Source: Gemmatimonadota bacterium (GTDB lineage Bacteria; Gemmatimonadota; Gemmatimonadetes; Longimicrobiales; Gaopeijiaceae). Taken from it: 38,008 bases of DNA. Where the stretch lies: NCBI GenBank assembly GCA_009841165.1, contig VXMI01000177.1:1-38008 (forward strand), written 5' to 3'. The notes under the pieces were generated by a model, which had not been told where the DNA came from, searched no databases, and saw only the letters and a list, made by a program, of their open reading frames with translations. Below are positions 26,438 to 33,308 of this stretch, in pieces. The stretch's first letter is position 1. Each line of letters begins with the position of its first letter. The translations under genes and the position numbers were made by a program.

Positions 26438-26917
26438 GTGCTCAGCAGGTTGATCCTTCTATTCGTCACCGTTCCGCTGGTGGAGCTGGCGATCCTGCTC
26501 CAGGTGGCGCAGTGGATCGGGCTGCTGCCCACGATCGCGCTGGTCGTCACCACCGGCATCGCGGGGGCGGCGCTCGCGCGCAACCAGGGGCTTCGGGCCT
26601 TCCTCTCCGTGCAGGAGGAACTGGCCGCGGGCCGGCTTCCCGGGCGATCGCTCCTCGACGGCCTGTCCATTCTCGTCGGCGGGGCGTTCCTGCTGACCCC
26701 CGGCATCCTCACCGATATCGCGGGGTTCAGCCTCCTGGTTCCCTTTTCCAGGCGCATGCTGCAGCGCGCCCTGCGCCGCACGCTCGAACGACGCGTGCGC
26801 GAGGGGAGCGTCGAGTTCAGGGTCTTCACTCCCGGGGGCGGTTCCAGCACGCGCCGGGGCGATGTCGGCACGCGGGAGGTGGGCACGCATCCGCCACGCT
26901 ACAGGGATCGCGAATGA
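26438..26917 (+). CDS. FxsA-family membrane protein
   Basis: A 159-residue protein of the FxsA family (suppressor of F-exclusion of phage T7 in E. coli). The first helix, RLILLFVTVPLVELAILLQVAQWIG, contains the conserved PLVEL motif. A second helix (LLPTIALVVTTGIAGAALAR) and LSILVGGAFLLTPGILTDIAGFSLLVPFSR follow, as in the family. The C-terminus is basic and cytoplasmic. The start is GTG 26438; expression could come from the divergent region shared with ispH (26336-26437). The biological role is poorly defined. Confidence 0.86.
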   Translation: MLSRLILLFVTVPLVELAILLQVAQWIGLLPTIALVVTTGIAGAALARNQGLRAFLSVQEELAAGRLPGRSLLDGLSILVGGAFLLTPGILTDIAGFSLLVPFSRRMLQRALRRTLERRVREGSVEFRVFTPGGGSSTRRGDVGTREVGTHPPRYRDRE

Positions 26918-26930
26918 ACCAGGGCCGCCC

Positions 26931-27995
26931 ATGAACCACGATATCTCCTTTCTCGAGCGTCTTCTTGACGCTCCCGGGCCGTCAGGCTTTGAAACCCGGC
27001 CGGCGGGCGTGTGGCGCGACGAGGCCGCTTCCTTCGCGAATGTGTGGTCCGACGTGGTCGGCAACAGCTACGCGGCGGTTCGGCGCGATGCGCGGCCGCT
27101 GGCGCTCATGGCGGGCCACATCGACGAAATCGGACTGCAGGTCACGCACGCCGACAAGTCCGGGCTGCTGTACTTTGCCGGGATCGGCGGATGGGACGCC
27201 CAGGTGCTCGTGGGCCAGCGCGTCCGGATTCTCGGCGCCAGGGGCGACGTCCCCGGCGTGATCGGGCGCAAGGCGATTCACCTCATGGAGCCGAAGGAGC
27301 GCGATGTGGCCGTGAAGGTGAAGAAGCTGTGGATCGATGTGGGCGCAGGGTCACGCGACGAGCTCGGGGAGCTGGGTGTGCGCGTCGGCGACCCCGCAGT
27401 GCTGGATGGGGGGATGGTGAGGCTGGCTGGCGACCGGGTCGCGAGCCGCGCGATCGACAACCGGGTTGGGGCGTTCGTGGTGCTGGAAGCGCTTCGCCTG
27501 CTGGCCGGGGGCGACGGCAGCGCCGGAGCGGTGGCCGTGGCGACCGCCCAGGAAGAGATCGGCTATTCCGGGGGTGGGGCGCGGACCAGCGCCTTCGATC
27601 TGTCGCCGGACGTTGCGCTGGTCGTGGACGTCACCCATGCCACCGATGTTCCCGGTGTCGAGAAGACTGAAGTGGGCGAGCATTCGCTCGGCGGCGGACC
27701 CGTTCTGACCCGCGGCTCGTCAACGCACCCCGCCGTCTTCGAACTCCTGGCCGAGACCGCCGAGTCGAACGACATCCCGTACTCGATCCAGGCTGCGCCG
27801 CTGCGGACCGCCACCGACGCGGACGGGATCCACCTCGCCCGGGGCGGCGTCCCCACCGGCCTCGTTTCGGTCCCGAACCGCTACATGCACTCGCCCTGCG
27901 AGATGGTCGCGACATCGGATCTCTTTCATGTGGCGCACCTGCTTGCGGCGTTCGTGGAACGGCTGGACGAGGGGGTCGACTTCGGGCGCCGATGA
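26931..27995 (+). CDS. M42 family glutamyl/deblocking aminopeptidase
   Basis: A 354-residue cytosolic co-catalytic metallopeptidase of the M42 family (PepA/TET/deblocking aminopeptidase group, also misnamed endoglucanase M). Ligands: H63 and D65 in AGHIDEIG, bridging D176 in AIDNRVG, the catalytic base and ligand E208/E209 in QEEIG, D233 in VDVTHATD, and a C-terminal histidine in YMHSPCE. Members usually form dodecameric shells that trim peptides to amino acids. The start is ATG 26931, 13 bases after the fxsA stop. It adds to the peptide-degrading content of the window. Confidence 0.9.
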   Translation: MNHDISFLERLLDAPGPSGFETRPAGVWRDEAASFANVWSDVVGNSYAAVRRDARPLALMAGHIDEIGLQVTHADKSGLLYFAGIGGWDAQVLVGQRVRILGARGDVPGVIGRKAIHLMEPKERDVAVKVKKLWIDVGAGSRDELGELGVRVGDPAVLDGGMVRLAGDRVASRAIDNRVGAFVVLEALRLLAGGDGSAGAVAVATAQEEIGYSGGGARTSAFDLSPDVALVVDVTHATDVPGVEKTEVGEHSLGGGPVLTRGSSTHPAVFELLAETAESNDIPYSIQAAPLRTATDADGIHLARGGVPTGLVSVPNRYMHSPCEMVATSDLFHVAHLLAAFVERLDEGVDFGRR

Positions 27996-28031
27996 CGTCC
28001 GCGGCCGTTCGGGGTGCGGGCAGGCTCTGCG

Positions 28032-28055
28032 TTGACCGCCTACCTTGCCTATACT
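28032..28055 (+). promoter_or_regulatory. Weak promoter-like boxes before the GAF-MBL-glc series
   Basis: TTGACC (28032-28037) and TATACT (28050-28055) occur in the 127-base gap before the GAF gene. Their 12-base spacing is too short for a standard sigma-70 promoter, so only the -10 may be used, or another sigma factor. Confidence 0.25.
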
Positions 28056-28122
28056 TAAGGGCTGGCCCTCGACCGCCCGCATTCCCTGATCCCTCAAATG
28101 CCGCCGGAAACAAGATCCCGAC

Positions 28123-28593
28123 ATGATCGATGCCCGCTACGTCGTCACCGAACTGCAGGAAATGAGAGAAGACGGACATCTCTCGGACGCCCTCCTTCGA
28201 TACGCTGTGCGCAGCCTCTACAAGTCCGACGAACGGTACAGCTGGGTGGGTGTCTACCTCCTCAGCGACGACAGGCTGGAACTCTGGCTTCACAACTACG
28301 TTGGCGCGCCCACCGAGCACGCCAGAATCCCGGTGGGCGAGGGGGTCTGCGGTACTGCCGTCGCGCACGGCGCCAACCAGAACGTGCCCGACGTGACGGA
28401 GTTTCCGGGGTATCTCGCCTGCAGCCCCTCGGTGAAATCGGAACTGGTGGTCCTGATCCGTGCGGGAGGCGAGATCTACGGCCAGTTCGACATCGATTCG
28501 AACGTTGCCGACGCGTTCACGGACCTGGACGAAGCGGCCATCCAGATGATCGCCGACAAGCTGGCCGAACAGCTCACCCGCGAGCGCCGCTGA
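28123..28593 (+). CDS. GAF domain protein, free methionine-R-sulfoxide reductase-like
   Basis: A 156-residue single GAF-domain protein resembling fRMsr (E. coli YebR/MsrC), which reduces free methionine-(R)-sulfoxide. Shared blocks are YSWVGVYLL, RIPVGEGVCGTAV, NVPDVTEFPGYLACSPSVKSELVVLI and GQFDIDS. Of the three cysteines of that family, C76 and C100 align with the second and third. The first is replaced by H66 (TEHARIP), from memory of the E. coli sequence. Activity may therefore use a different resolving route or be lost. The gene ends in TGA followed by C, and the same frame continues straight into the MBL-fold gene. Confidence 0.82.
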   Translation: MIDARYVVTELQEMREDGHLSDALLRYAVRSLYKSDERYSWVGVYLLSDDRLELWLHNYVGAPTEHARIPVGEGVCGTAVAHGANQNVPDVTEFPGYLACSPSVKSELVVLIRAGGEIYGQFDIDSNVADAFTDLDEAAIQMIADKLAEQLTRERR

Positions 28594-29316
28594 CTGGGCG
28601 TTCAGTCCTTTCTTGCGCCCAATCCCGGGCCGATCACGCTCACAGGCACCCGTAGCTACGTAGTCGGCGGAGAAACCGCGGCCATCATCGACCCGGGCCC
28701 GGCCATCGAGTCCCATCTGGCCCGGCTCGCCGACGCGGTGAACGCCGCGGCCAGGGTCGTCATCCTCCTTACCCACGCGCACGACGACCACACCGCGGGG
28801 GCGGCCGATCTGGCGCGCACCCTCGGTGCCGAAGTGTCGGGTCCGGGCGGACAACGCGCCATCGAAGACGGCGGGACCTTCTCCACCAGCGACGGAGAAC
28901 TGGTCGCCGTCTCCACGCCGGGCCACGCGCGCCGCCACTTCTGCTTCCACCTTCCGCGCACCGGAGAGGCCTTCGCAGGCGACCTGATCCTCGGCGAAGG
29001 CGACACCACCTGGGTGGGGGAATACCCCGGAGCCGTGGCCCAGTACCTCGCCTCGCTGGACCGGCTGGAAGCCCTCCGGCCCCGGGTCATCCATCCCGCC
29101 CACGGCCCGGACATCCTCGATCCGGCGGCCGCCATCGAGCGCTTTCGCCGCCACCGCCTGTCCCGCATCGAGATGGTCCGGAGCGCGCTCGACGCGGGCC
29201 ACACGGATTCCGCCGCCATCACGCGGCACGTCTACGGCGCCCTCCCGCGGGAGGTGCGGGCGATGGCCCTCGCGAGCGTCGAGGCCATTCTGGACTACCT
29301 CTCCGGCGCCGAATAG
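28594..29316 (+). CDS. Metallo-beta-lactamase-fold hydrolase (LACTB2-like), no canonical start
   Basis: A metal-dependent hydrolase domain with THAHDDHTAGA (the HxHxDH motif), STPGHARRHFCFHL, AFAGDLILG and HPAHGP, plus a C-terminal helical domain as in LACTB2-type proteins. The conserved first strands, APNPGPITLTGTRSYVVGG (28615-28668), lie upstream of the first usable codon, GTG 28738. Between the preceding TGA (28591-28593) and that motif there is no ATG, GTG or TTG, only CTG at 28594. I place the start at this CTG (240 residues). Readthrough of the TGA from the in-frame GAF gene would give a fusion of 397 residues. If GTG 28738 were used, the fold would lack its first strands. Confidence 0.72.
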   Translation: MGVQSFLAPNPGPITLTGTRSYVVGGETAAIIDPGPAIESHLARLADAVNAAARVVILLTHAHDDHTAGAADLARTLGAEVSGPGGQRAIEDGGTFSTSDGELVAVSTPGHARRHFCFHLPRTGEAFAGDLILGEGDTTWVGEYPGAVAQYLASLDRLEALRPRVIHPAHGPDILDPAAAIERFRRHRLSRIEMVRSALDAGHTDSAAITRHVYGALPREVRAMALASVEAILDYLSGAE

Positions 29317-29326
29317 CTTGACCCGC

Positions 29327-30784
29327 ATGATACCGGGACGTCTAACGAAGGAACTGGCGCGGATATGCGGGCGCGATCACGTCATCGTCGACCGCGACCG
29401 GCTCCTCGTCTACGAATCCGACGCGCTGACCGCGTACCGGCACCGGCCGGGCGCCGTGGTCCTCCCGCGCACGACCGAAGAGGTACGCCGCACCGTCCAG
29501 GCCGTGGTGCGGCACGGGCTCCCCATCGTGCCGCGCGGCGCCGGCACCGGGCTCTCGGGCGGCGCGGTCGCGCTCAACGGCGCCGTCGTCATCGGCACCG
29601 CGCGCATGAACCGCATCCTGGCCATCGACGCCCCGAACCGCCGCGCCGTGCTTCAACCGGGCGTCATCAACGCCGAGCTGTCGGCCGCGGCTGCCGTCCA
29701 CGGCCTCTACTACGCCCCCGATCCCTCCTCCCAGACCGCCTGCACCATCGGCGGCAACGTGGCGGAGAACTCCGGCGGCCCACACTGCCTCAAGTACGGG
29801 GTCACTTCGCGCTACGTCACCGGGTTGACCGTGGTCCTTGCCGACGGCTCCGTGGTGAAGGTGGGGGGCCACGGACGCGAGGCGCCGGGCTACGACCTGG
29901 TCGGCCTGTTCGTGGGCTCGGAGGGGTGTTTCGGCATCGCCACCGAGATCGAGGTCGGCCTGTTGCCGGTCCCGGAGGGCGTCCGCACCCTGCTCGGCAT
30001 CTTCGATCGAATCGAGGATTCGGGACGTGCCGTGTCCGACATCATCAGCGCCGGCCTGCTCCCGGCCGCGATGGAGATCATCGACGGGCCCACGATCCGC
30101 GCCGTCGAGGACAGCGTCTTCGCCGCGGGCTACCCCACCGATGCCGAGGCCGCGCTCGTGATCGAGTTCGACGGCCTCGAGGCGGGTCTCGACCACGAGG
30201 CCGAGCGGGCCACCCGCTTCTGTTTCCGTGCCGGCGCGCGCGAGGTGCGAAGCGCCCGCGACGAAGAGGAGCGCCTCGCGCTGTGGAAGGGACGCAAGAA
30301 GGCGTTCGGCGCCATGGGACGGATTGCCCCCGACCTCCTGGTCCAGGACGCCACCGTTCCCCGCACGACGCTCCCCGCGATCCTCAAGGGCATCTCGGAG
30401 ATCGGGAATCGCTACAACCTGATCGTCGCGAACGTCTTCCACGCCGGCGACGGCAACCTTCATCCCAACATCCTCTTCGACCGCCGCGACCTGGACGAAC
30501 TGGAACGCGTCGAGCACGCCTCGAAGGAGATCATGCAGCTGTGCGTCGACGCCGGCGGCACGATCACCGGCGAGCACGGGGTCGGGCTCGACAAGAAGCA
30601 TCACATGCCGCTCATCTACGGCCCCGACGAACTCGACACCATGTGGGGGATCCGCCGCGTCTTCGACCCGGGGGCCGTGATGAACCCCGGCAAGGTCCTG
30701 CCCGAAGAGACCGAACCGTCGCCCGCGAACCCGCGTCGGGAACCCGCGCCCGGCGAGCTGGTCGGCGCACCGGCGCCGGCATGA
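29327..30784 (+). CDS. glcD: FAD-linked oxidase, glycolate/D-lactate oxidase subunit GlcD-like
   Basis: A 485-residue flavoprotein of the GlcD/D-2-hydroxyacid dehydrogenase family. The PCMH-type FAD-binding domain has VPRGAGTGLSGGAVALNGAVV and CTIGGNVAENSGGPHCLKYGVTSRYV. The C-terminal oxidase domain has NVFHAGDGNLHPNI and GGTITGEHGVGLDKK. It would oxidise glycolate, D-lactate or another 2-hydroxyacid at the membrane together with GlcE and GlcF. ATG 29327 is preferred; TTG 29318 would add MTR. The stop overlaps the glcE start (ATGA, 30781-30784). Confidence 0.9.
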   Translation: MIPGRLTKELARICGRDHVIVDRDRLLVYESDALTAYRHRPGAVVLPRTTEEVRRTVQAVVRHGLPIVPRGAGTGLSGGAVALNGAVVIGTARMNRILAIDAPNRRAVLQPGVINAELSAAAAVHGLYYAPDPSSQTACTIGGNVAENSGGPHCLKYGVTSRYVTGLTVVLADGSVVKVGGHGREAPGYDLVGLFVGSEGCFGIATEIEVGLLPVPEGVRTLLGIFDRIEDSGRAVSDIISAGLLPAAMEIIDGPTIRAVEDSVFAAGYPTDAEAALVIEFDGLEAGLDHEAERATRFCFRAGAREVRSARDEEERLALWKGRKKAFGAMGRIAPDLLVQDATVPRTTLPAILKGISEIGNRYNLIVANVFHAGDGNLHPNILFDRRDLDELERVEHASKEIMQLCVDAGGTITGEHGVGLDKKHHMPLIYGPDELDTMWGIRRVFDPGAVMNPGKVLPEETEPSPANPRREPAPGELVGAPAPA

Positions 30785-31971
30785 ACAAAGAGGCGCTCAC
30801 CCCGGAGTCCACCGCAGAGACACGGGAGATCGTGCTGGCCGCCCGCGAGGCCGGATCCCGCCTGCTCCCCGCGGGCCGCCGGACGTGGCCGCGCGCCGGC
30901 GGGTGGACGCGAGACGGCGGCACACCCGTCTCGACATCGCAACTGGACACCGTCCACCACTACGAACCCGCCGATCTGACCCTCACCGCCGGCGCCGGCA
31001 TCGGCCTGGACCGCCTCGCCCGGATCGTCGGACCCAACCGGCAATGGCTGCCCTTCGACGCGCCGGGAAGCAGCGCCGGAACGCTCGGAGCGGCGGTCGC
31101 GTCGGGGACCTCGGGACCGCTGCGGACCCGCTACGGCGCCACCCGCGACAACGTGCTCGGCCTCGAGGTGGTCACGGGCGACGGCCGCACGCTTCGTATC
31201 GGCGGCCGCGTCGTCAAGAACGTCGCCGGATACGACCTCGTGCGCCTCTTCACCGGCAGCCGCGGCAGTCTGGGCATCATCACCCGCGTGTCGGTTCGCC
31301 TCTTCCCGATCCCCGAGGCCGACGAGACTCTCCTCTTCTCGGGCGGGCCGGCCGAGGCCGTGTCGATGGCCCGCACCGTGTGCACGAGCGAGGTTCCGGT
31401 CGCGGCGGCGGAGTTGGTGGAGGGAGAAGAGGTCGGCGCCGACCGCGCCATGGTGCTGGCCGTGCGTCTTCTCGGCGGTCCTCGCGAGGTGGAGGAGAGC
31501 CGCAGGCGCATCTGCGCGGCGCTGGGCACCGATCCCTGGCGCGCGCTTCACGACGGCGAAAGCCGCCGCTTCCACGCGGCCCGCATCGGGTGGGAGGAGG
31601 GGGCCTCCGTCGTCGCGCGGCTGGCCGCCCTCCCCGACCGGATCGACGCGGCGCTGGCGGCGGCGCGGGCCTGCGCAACCCGGGCAAACGGCGCCCAGGG
31701 CAGCGCCGCGATCACCGCCGACGCGCTCCAGGGCCTCGTGCGCGTCAGGGCATCCCTTCCGGATTCCGACTCGACGCGCCTGGCGGAGACCCTGGCCACG
31801 GCGCGCCGCGAAACGGAAGCCCTGGGCGGCTCCCTCACCTTGAGCCACGCGCCGCCGGAGGTTGCGGCCCGCGTGGGATGGACGGGCTCCGGGCCAGAGA
31901 CGGCCGCACTCACCGACCGGATCAAGGCGCTTTTCGACCCCGATTCCGTGCTGGCCCCCCGGTGTCCGTGA
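30781..31971 (+). CDS. glcE: FAD-binding oxidase subunit GlcE-like
   Basis: A 396-residue second FAD-binding protein of the glycolate oxidase complex. It is shorter than GlcD, as is typical. The FAD domain shows TLTAGAGIGLDRLARI, GTLGAAVASGTSGPLRTRYGATRDNVLG and the GlcE hallmark GGRVVKNVAGYDLVRLFTGSRGSLG written across 31201-31275. The C-terminus ends with FDPDSVLAP, as in the family. It overlaps glcD and glcF by four bases each, so the three subunits are translationally coupled. Confidence 0.9.
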   Translation: MNKEALTPESTAETREIVLAAREAGSRLLPAGRRTWPRAGGWTRDGGTPVSTSQLDTVHHYEPADLTLTAGAGIGLDRLARIVGPNRQWLPFDAPGSSAGTLGAAVASGTSGPLRTRYGATRDNVLGLEVVTGDGRTLRIGGRVVKNVAGYDLVRLFTGSRGSLGIITRVSVRLFPIPEADETLLFSGGPAEAVSMARTVCTSEVPVAAAELVEGEEVGADRAMVLAVRLLGGPREVEESRRRICAALGTDPWRALHDGESRRFHAARIGWEEGASVVARLAALPDRIDAALAAARACATRANGAQGSAAITADALQGLVRVRASLPDSDSTRLAETLATARRETEALGGSLTLSHAPPEVAARVGWTGSGPETAALTDRIKALFDPDSVLAPRCP

Positions 31972-33308
31972 GCGCCGCGGCCGACTCCCTGGCCCACGCG
32001 GTCAAGGAACAGGAGGAAGGCCTCCTCAACTGCGTGCACTGCGGTTTCTGCCTCCCCGCCTGTCCCACCTACAGGCGCCTGGGCGACGAGGCCGACTCGC
32101 CGCGCGGCCGTCTGCACCTGATGCGCGCCGTCGTGGAAGGGCGGCTCGACCCCGGGGCGGAGGCCTTTCAGACGCACATCGGGCGCTGCCTGGGCTGCCG
32201 GGCCTGCGAGCCTGTCTGCCCCTCGGGGGTCGAGTACGGCAACCTGCTGGAGCTAGCTCGTCACGTGGGCGGTGAGGCGAGGCGTCCCTCCCTGGTGACG
32301 CGGCTTCTGCTGCGGGTTTTCGGCACGGAGTGGCTCGCCCGCCCGGCCATGTTCGCGGGCCGGGCCGCGCGCGCAACCGGCATCCCGGCGCTGGTGACGC
32401 GCCTGCTCGCCGGCAGCGCGCCCCCGCGGGGGCCACGCCTCGGGCTGGCCATGCTGGCCGCCTCGGGCCCCATGCGCGGACTGCACGCCGCGCCCGCCGG
32501 TTCCGGCTCCCCTCGCCCCGGCGCCCGCGTGCGGGCCACCGTCGGCCTCCTGACCGGGTGCGTCCAGGCCGGCCTCTTCTCCCGCGTCAACCAGGCAACC
32601 GCGCGGGTTCTGGAGGCCAACGGATACCAGGTCGTACCCGTCGAGGCCCAGGGATGCTGCGGCGCCCTGCACGCCCACGCGGGCGATCTGGAGGCTGCGC
32701 GGGCAATGGCACGGCGCAACGTCGAGGCCTTCGAGGCGGCCGGCGTCGACTATCTGGCCATGAACGCCTCGGGGTGCGGCGCGGCGATGGCCGAGTACGG
32801 CTCGCTCCTCTCCCACGACCCGGCAATGCGCGACCGAGCGGCGGCGATCGCCGGGCGGGTCAGGGACGTCTCGGAGCTCCTGGCGGCTTGCGGGCCCGTG
32901 CGCGGGAGCGCGGTGCGAATGAAGGTGACCTGGGACGCACCCTGCCACCTGGTGCACGCCCAGCGCGTGAGCGGCCCGCCGCAGGCGGTGCTGGACGCGG
33001 TGCCGGAGCTCGATGTTCTGCCGCTCGCGGGAGCCACCGAGTGTTGTGGCGGCGCGGGGATCTACGGCCTTACCCACCCTCATCTGGGCGGATGGATCGG
33101 TGGCGACAAGGTGCGCAGCGTGCTGGAGAGCGGCGCTGACATCCTGGTTACCGGCAACCCGGGGTGCATGATGCAGATCGGCGCCGGGCTCCGCCTGGCC
33201 GGCAGCGAAGTGCCCGTGTTGCACCTGGTGGAACTGCTGGACGAGAGCTATCGGCGCGCGGGGTTTTACGCCGGCGGGACGGACCACGGCAACGGGAGTC
33301 GTCCGTGA
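31968..33308 (+). CDS. glcF: Iron-sulfur subunit GlcF-like
   Basis: A 446-residue electron-transfer subunit. Two [4Fe-4S] motifs lie near the N-terminus: C22/C25/C28/C32 (CVHCGFCLPACP) and C74/C77/C80/C84 (CLGCRACEPVCP). Two CCG (DUF224) domains follow, marked by GCCGALHAHAGD and ECCGGAGIYG. This is the standard GlcF layout, passing electrons from the flavin subunits to the quinone pool. GTG 31968 overlaps the glcE stop (GTGA); GTG 31962 is a close alternative. The stop overlaps the start of the next M20 gene. Confidence 0.9.
   Translation: MSAAADSLAHAVKEQEEGLLNCVHCGFCLPACPTYRRLGDEADSPRGRLHLMRAVVEGRLDPGAEAFQTHIGRCLGCRACEPVCPSGVEYGNLLELARHVGGEARRPSLVTRLLLRVFGTEWLARPAMFAGRAARATGIPALVTRLLAGSAPPRGPRLGLAMLAASGPMRGLHAAPAGSGSPRPGARVRATVGLLTGCVQAGLFSRVNQATARVLEANGYQVVPVEAQGCCGALHAHAGDLEAARAMARRNVEAFEAAGVDYLAMNASGCGAAMAEYGSLLSHDPAMRDRAAAIAGRVRDVSELLAACGPVRGSAVRMKVTWDAPCHLVHAQRVSGPPQAVLDAVPELDVLPLAGATECCGGAGIYGLTHPHLGGWIGGDKVRSVLESGADILVTGNPGCMMQIGAGLRLAGSEVPVLHLVELLDESYRRAGFYAGGTDHGNGSRP

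Follow-up and report, generated by a model that had tools for sequence, protein, structure and literature searches.

Introduction

The AUU codon of infC is a conserved near-cognate start that is used for regulation. CUG makes up about 0.024 % of bacterial initiation codons, supports initiation in E. coli at 0.86 % of the AUG level, and is discriminated against less strictly when the initiator tRNA carries a known change (PMC11497404). Prodigal considers only ATG, GTG and TTG as starts (PMC2848648); by finders limited to these three codons, genes that start with CTG must therefore be truncated, extended or dropped. Termination-reinitiation has been described for gene pairs joined as ATGA or TGATG (PMC6728339, PMC10666635), and a stop-to-start distance of −8 to +10 nt is taken as predictive of it (PMC10666635).

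The window analysed here is a stretch of 38,008 nt from a Gemmatimonadota bacterium (contig VXMI01000177.1, forward strand), in which a gene for a GAF-domain protein of the fRMsr type is followed directly, and in the same frame, by a gene for an MBL-fold hydrolase. Three options had been offered for this junction in a first-pass annotation: a CTG start of the MBL gene, programmed readthrough, and a recently broken fusion. The first is retained below, and the other two are given up. No earlier report of a CTG start for the MBL gene was found in the literature searched, which consisted mainly of non-subscription papers.

Experimental Section

Orthologues were gathered from 121 genomes of the family, 97 of which gave a match, and from sister families, and the junctions of those retrieved were read one by one. 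The sequences compared were genome assemblies, mostly MAGs; the close relatives of the window genome, itself a MAG, are Gemmatimonadota (Longimicrobiales) MAGs. Under the strictest rule for a non-canonical start, an in-frame stop had to lie upstream, and no ATG, GTG or TTG was allowed as far as four codons short of the conserved motif. The firm cases do not include g2, g19, g21, g23, g36 and G011, in which the CTG label was weak.

Results

Proteins and gene block

The features of the locus are collected in Table 1. The first-pass identification of the two products as an fRMsr-like GAF protein and a LACTB2-like MBL protein was borne out by the Pfam and PDB matches. Among solved relatives, the GAF protein matched Ta0848, YebR and the Neisseria-type MsrC (PDB matches 4mmn, 1vhm and 3mmh); the relation to YebR and MsrC is accompanied by the cysteines Cys76 and Cys100 in the motifs GVCGTA and YLAC, and the protein is an ordinary fRMsr member, a predicted free methionine-(R)-sulfoxide reductase. 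The MBL protein contains the HxHxDH motif, and H61, H63, D65, H66, H111, D130 and H170 were invariant in an alignment of 12 orthologues. The solved structure closest to it is LACTB2, and it is, as judged from these motifs and matches, an ordinary LACTB2-like hydrolase; the unusual point is the start of its gene only.

Table 1. Positions of the genes and codons discussed, numbered from the first letter of the window.
Feature	Position	Strand	Basis
GAF-domain gene, fRMsr type, 156 aa	28123..28593	+	ORF; Pfam GAF 2.5e-9; stop TGA 28591-28593
CTG, proposed MBL start codon, 0 nt past TGA	28594..28596	+	sole in-frame NTG before conserved motif
LACTB2-like MBL-fold hydrolase gene, 240 aa, stop TAG 29314-29316	28594..29316	+	Pfam Lactamase_B 4.5e-16; PDB 4ad9 LACTB2 2.1e-23
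GTG, first canonical codon in MBL frame, 48 codons past CTG	28738..28740	+	ORF reading
glcD-like gene, start ATG 29327 or TTG 29318	29327..30784	+	NCBIfam GlcD, Pfam FAD-oxidase matches; synteny

The gene order M42 peptidase, fRMsr, MBL, glcD was found in 31 of 32 related loci, the remaining one being interrupted by a contig end, and MBL is the least conserved of the four proteins. In the window, positions 26862-33308 contain these four genes and then glcE- and glcF-like ORFs; from this neighbourhood, a functional tie of the MBL hydrolase to glycolate oxidation is possible. The same block as in the g6 Gemmatimonadota MAGs was also present in PBUX01000064.1 (L054), titled "Euryarchaeota archaeon isolate RS442"; because of this equality of gene blocks, the title is probably a misnaming.

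The junction in the window

The GAF ORF ends with GAG CGC CGC TGA, and the MBL frame runs from 28594 as CTG GGC GTT CAG TCC TTT CTT GCG CCC AAT CCC GGG CCG up to the NPGP motif. After the last in-frame stop, no ATG, GTG or TTG precedes the conserved MBL N-terminus, and the single TTG nearby (28613-28615) lies outside the MBL frame. The earlier description of the junction, a GAF stop followed by an in-frame CTG and an MBL N-terminus devoid of canonical starts, was thus confirmed on the sequence; the length of 397 residues given for a hypothetical GAF-MBL fusion was also right. Two other species (G014 and G002), whose MBL proteins are 94-96 % identical, carry the identical sequence TGA CTG GGC GTT CAG TCC TTT CTT GCG CCC AAT, so an assembly error in a single genome does not explain the junction. 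Over 46 nt, it is unchanged among the three species; this is the third-longest unchanged run of both genes and is suggestive only. Across both genes, the trio differs by 31-36 synonymous versus 10-22 non-synonymous codons, a pattern that places the pair under constraint.

A 7-bp hairpin with UGA-CUG in its loop was predicted at 28582-28603 of the window (z −1.8) and is weakened in G002 (z 0.0). As a functional element it was discarded; with the G002 value, it is probably due to chance.

The first canonical codon in the MBL frame, GTG 28738, would yield a short protein and leave the conserved part upstream untranslated. Such a start would remove 48 residues, 11 of which (A8 to H41) are invariant in the 12 orthologues; the block is encoded in all relatives, and the product would lack the start of the fold. 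We regard such a start as highly improbable.

Start codons within the genus of the window

On the tree, G006 and G010 form the nearest branch outside the species cluster of the window. Their junctions read GTG AGC GTT TGC TCC TTT CTC GCG CTC AAT (G006) and GTG AGC GTG CGT TCC TTT CTC GCG CTT AAT (G010), and in both the GTG is aligned with the CTG of the window. The candidate codon thus coincides with canonical starts of orthologues, namely GTG in these two species and GTG and TTG in g34. In another part of the genus (G007, G021), the sequence TGA GAR CTG GGA CAR GTC was found, again with no canonical start. The relatives lend strong support to CTG as the start of the MBL gene, through the GTG at the same codon in G006 and G010 as well as through the genera that have CTG only.

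Initiation at another, non-NTG codon (GTT 28600 or CTT), or at an out-of-frame start followed by a frameshift, was also considered. At the position of GTT 28600, the codon in relatives is GTG, GTC, GTT or GTA; however, CTG is the only near-cognate NTG and is aligned with the GTG of the nearest sisters, and neither a slippery nor a conserved out-of-frame start was observed for the frameshift variant. Both variants together appear scarcely probable.

Frame relation of the two genes

UGAC is a leaky stop context. With a C after the TGA, both domains in one frame and no canonical start in the window, readthrough of the UGA, programmed or basal, to a GAF-MBL fusion could provide a route to the MBL protein. 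Among about 100 related species, however, the MBL gene occurs in all three frames (0, 1 and 2) with respect to GAF, with a spacing from a 4-nt overlap to tens of nucleotides, rather than both parts sharing one frame; because this relation varies, no GAF-MBL fusion is maintained. In g6 the genes overlap as CTGA, which makes a readthrough fusion impossible there. In G016 and G022, two examples of frame-0 relatives, a TAG is followed by a GTG start of the MBL gene itself, and the sisters G006 and G010 carry GTG at the CTG position. Readthrough as the source of the MBL protein is accordingly very unlikely, even if basal leakage may occur at the UGA-C of the window.

Separate ATG, GTG or TTG starts of the MBL gene are common among relatives. 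Clearly separate genes with canonical starts had been named beforehand as the observation that would speak against a fusion, and their presence does so. With the variable frames, the g6 overlaps and the TAG of the frame-0 relatives, it leaves programmed readthrough unsupported. The GAF stop is found at about the same ...ERR* end throughout the genus of the window and in most other species, including pairs that are clearly separate, which lends no support to a fused gene that has recently gained a stop.

CTG starts across the family

The 93 classifiable orthologues comprised 56 with a canonical start, 36 with CTG only and 1 with neither. Under the strictest rule 28 species were left, and 24 of these (the window and 23 others) have CTG 9-11 codons before the motif. 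CTG was found in all 13 species of g6, where it overlaps the GAF stop as CTGA (−4 nt) in 12/12 species in which GAF was found, in 5/5 species of g25 and in 2/2 of g29. In g34, three species have CTG at one aligned start position, where a fourth has GTG and a fifth TTG. The outgroup families f2, f3 and f4 have mainly ATG or GTG. On the tree, 17 changes among the canonical, CTG and none states were counted; the start state is therefore labile in some lineages and common to whole genera in others. The distribution over many related, mostly uncultured Gemmatimonadota makes the CTG start look like a maintained feature.

A decaying MBL pseudogene would account for the missing canonical start and for the position of MBL as the least conserved protein of the block. 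Against this stand the same junction in three independently assembled species, the excess of synonymous change with all metal ligands intact, and a CTG state common to whole genera, so that decay is barely credible.

Neither a canonical start nor a well-placed CTG was present in G047 and two g21 species. At locus L016 (G047, g26), no near-cognate NTG precedes the conserved block after the in-frame stop; a TTG lies within the block. At L105 and L106 (G134 and G042, g21), ACG stands at the expected start position after GTAGGAG and is a possible MBL start in these two species. Four g25 loci (L097, L100, L103, L104) contain an out-of-frame minigene, ATGGCCTGA or ATGCCCTGA, that overlaps the CTG start; it is absent from G046 (L107).

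Shine-Dalgarno pairing

Mean SD pairing, from simple duplex values, was −7.0 kcal/mol before CTG (n=36), −3.4 before GTG, −2.5 before ATG and −2.4 before TTG; the stronger pairing before CTG is due to g6, g25 and g34, and ancestry is a confounder, the species compared being related and phylogenetically not independent. In the genus of the window the SD is weak, at −2.2 to −2.8 kcal/mol (window −2.2).

In g6, GGAGG stands 4 nt upstream of CTG in 11/13 species; G147 has GGAG and G143 only GGGA. This SD lies inside the 3′ end of GAF, and its Arg codon is CGG in 12/12 species, the neighbouring codon being CGT, CGC, CGA, AAG or CAG. The last GAF residue is A, S, T, N or P, with a codon ending in C in 12/12 (here, too, related species that do not count as independent), and ATG, GTG or TTG (TTG for Asn) is therefore one synonymous change away. 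Third-base C at fourfold A/S/T/P codons amounts to 35 % in G145 and 23 % in G139; a C before the GAF stop was also found in 65/85 other family members and is common in the family.

Start choice beyond the MBL gene and initiator tRNA

SD-to-codon profiles of 300 kb of G145, 100 kb of G139 and 400 kb of G021 gave no excess of CTG; ATG was in excess in all three and GTG in two, the number of sites in G139 being small. A genome-wide relaxed start choice was rejected on these profiles, which cover parts of three genomes. In an unsupervised codon-signal scan of 100 kb of G139, one of 75 genes had coding signal well before any canonical start, and this was the MBL gene; the scan, which is coarse, flagged MBL and 12 others among 272 genes of G145, and 17 of 319 in G021. 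The best reading is that CTG starts are not general in the sampled genomes and would be specific to the MBL gene.

Of the 18 genomes checked, 16 contain an exact copy of the anticodon arm of the initiator tRNA, GGGCTCATAACCC, whether or not they use CTG; G112 and G154 gave no exact match. Eight of the loci were confirmed as tRNA-Met, and tRNA positions 1 and 72 are unpaired in the window genome. An altered initiator tRNA was likewise rejected: the three G-C pairs are present and the stem is normal in the window genome, and because of these pairs the CUG-relaxing change is not seen there.

Discussion

We consider it very probable, on the comparison of sequences, that the locus consists of two genes in one operon and that the MBL gene starts at CTG 28594 next to the fRMsr UGA, most likely by re-initiation, with a CUG start that is specific to this gene and has been kept or re-gained over much of the family. 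By the most likely route, a ribosome would end fRMsr at the UGA and re-initiate on the adjoining CUG with fMet-tRNA, which would decode it with a weak first base pair and at low efficiency. The stop-to-start distances of 0 nt in the window and −4 nt in g6 lie within the range predictive of termination-reinitiation; for the window, re-initiation is proposed because stop and start adjoin and the SD pairs only weakly (−2.2 kcal/mol). As the SD is weak throughout its genus, efficient CUG initiation there would depend entirely on coupling. In several genera in which CUG is fixed, it is backed by a strong SD, which in g6 lies within the 3′ end of the upstream gene and is accompanied by the −4 nt overlap; in some lineages, CUG alternates with GTG and TTG at one position. 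From initiation at the CTG, a tryptic peptide within residues 1-48 would be expected, either GVQSFLAPNPGPITLTGTR, with Met cleaved off before Gly, or the form that retains Met.

CUG is kept in whole genera though single changes, synonymous ones in g6, would give ATG, GTG or TTG; either it works well enough with an SD and a neighbouring stop, or weak initiation is wanted. We infer that translation of MBL begins at the CUG, that this initiation is linked to termination of the gene upstream, and that so weak a start limits MBL synthesis and couples it to translation of fRMsr; the simplest reason for keeping it would be that the hydrolase is then made in small amounts and in step with fRMsr. More tentatively, and with rather more doubt than confidence, we suggest that selection maintains CUG for its deliberate weakness and coupling, possibly with regulation, and that the start codon sets the fRMsr:MBL ratio or the way in which this ratio responds to initiation fidelity (IF3, stress). 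If so, MBL output across the family would be set by the frequency of re-initiation after fRMsr, and an ordinary metabolic operon would hold a counterpart of the infC AUU. For annotation, "truncated" homologues in MAGs can be screened for CTG starts.

Compared with the known systems, the locus resembles rare bacterial CUG starts in that CUG is the sole available start, which fMet-tRNA presumably decodes through a weak first pair; unlike them, the MBL CTG is conserved at a single gene in many species from several genera, touches or overlaps the preceding stop and, in some genera, follows a strong SD. With termination-reinitiation pairs of the ATGA and TGATG kind, it shares a stop and start that touch or overlap by 4 nt and, in g6, an SD in the upstream gene; in contrast to these pairs, the start is CTG (as CTGA or TGACTG), and coupling is deduced from sequence. 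As with the AUU of infC, a weak start has been kept in evolution with a stronger codon one change away, whereas here the codon is CUG and the gene a metabolic one with no known feedback.
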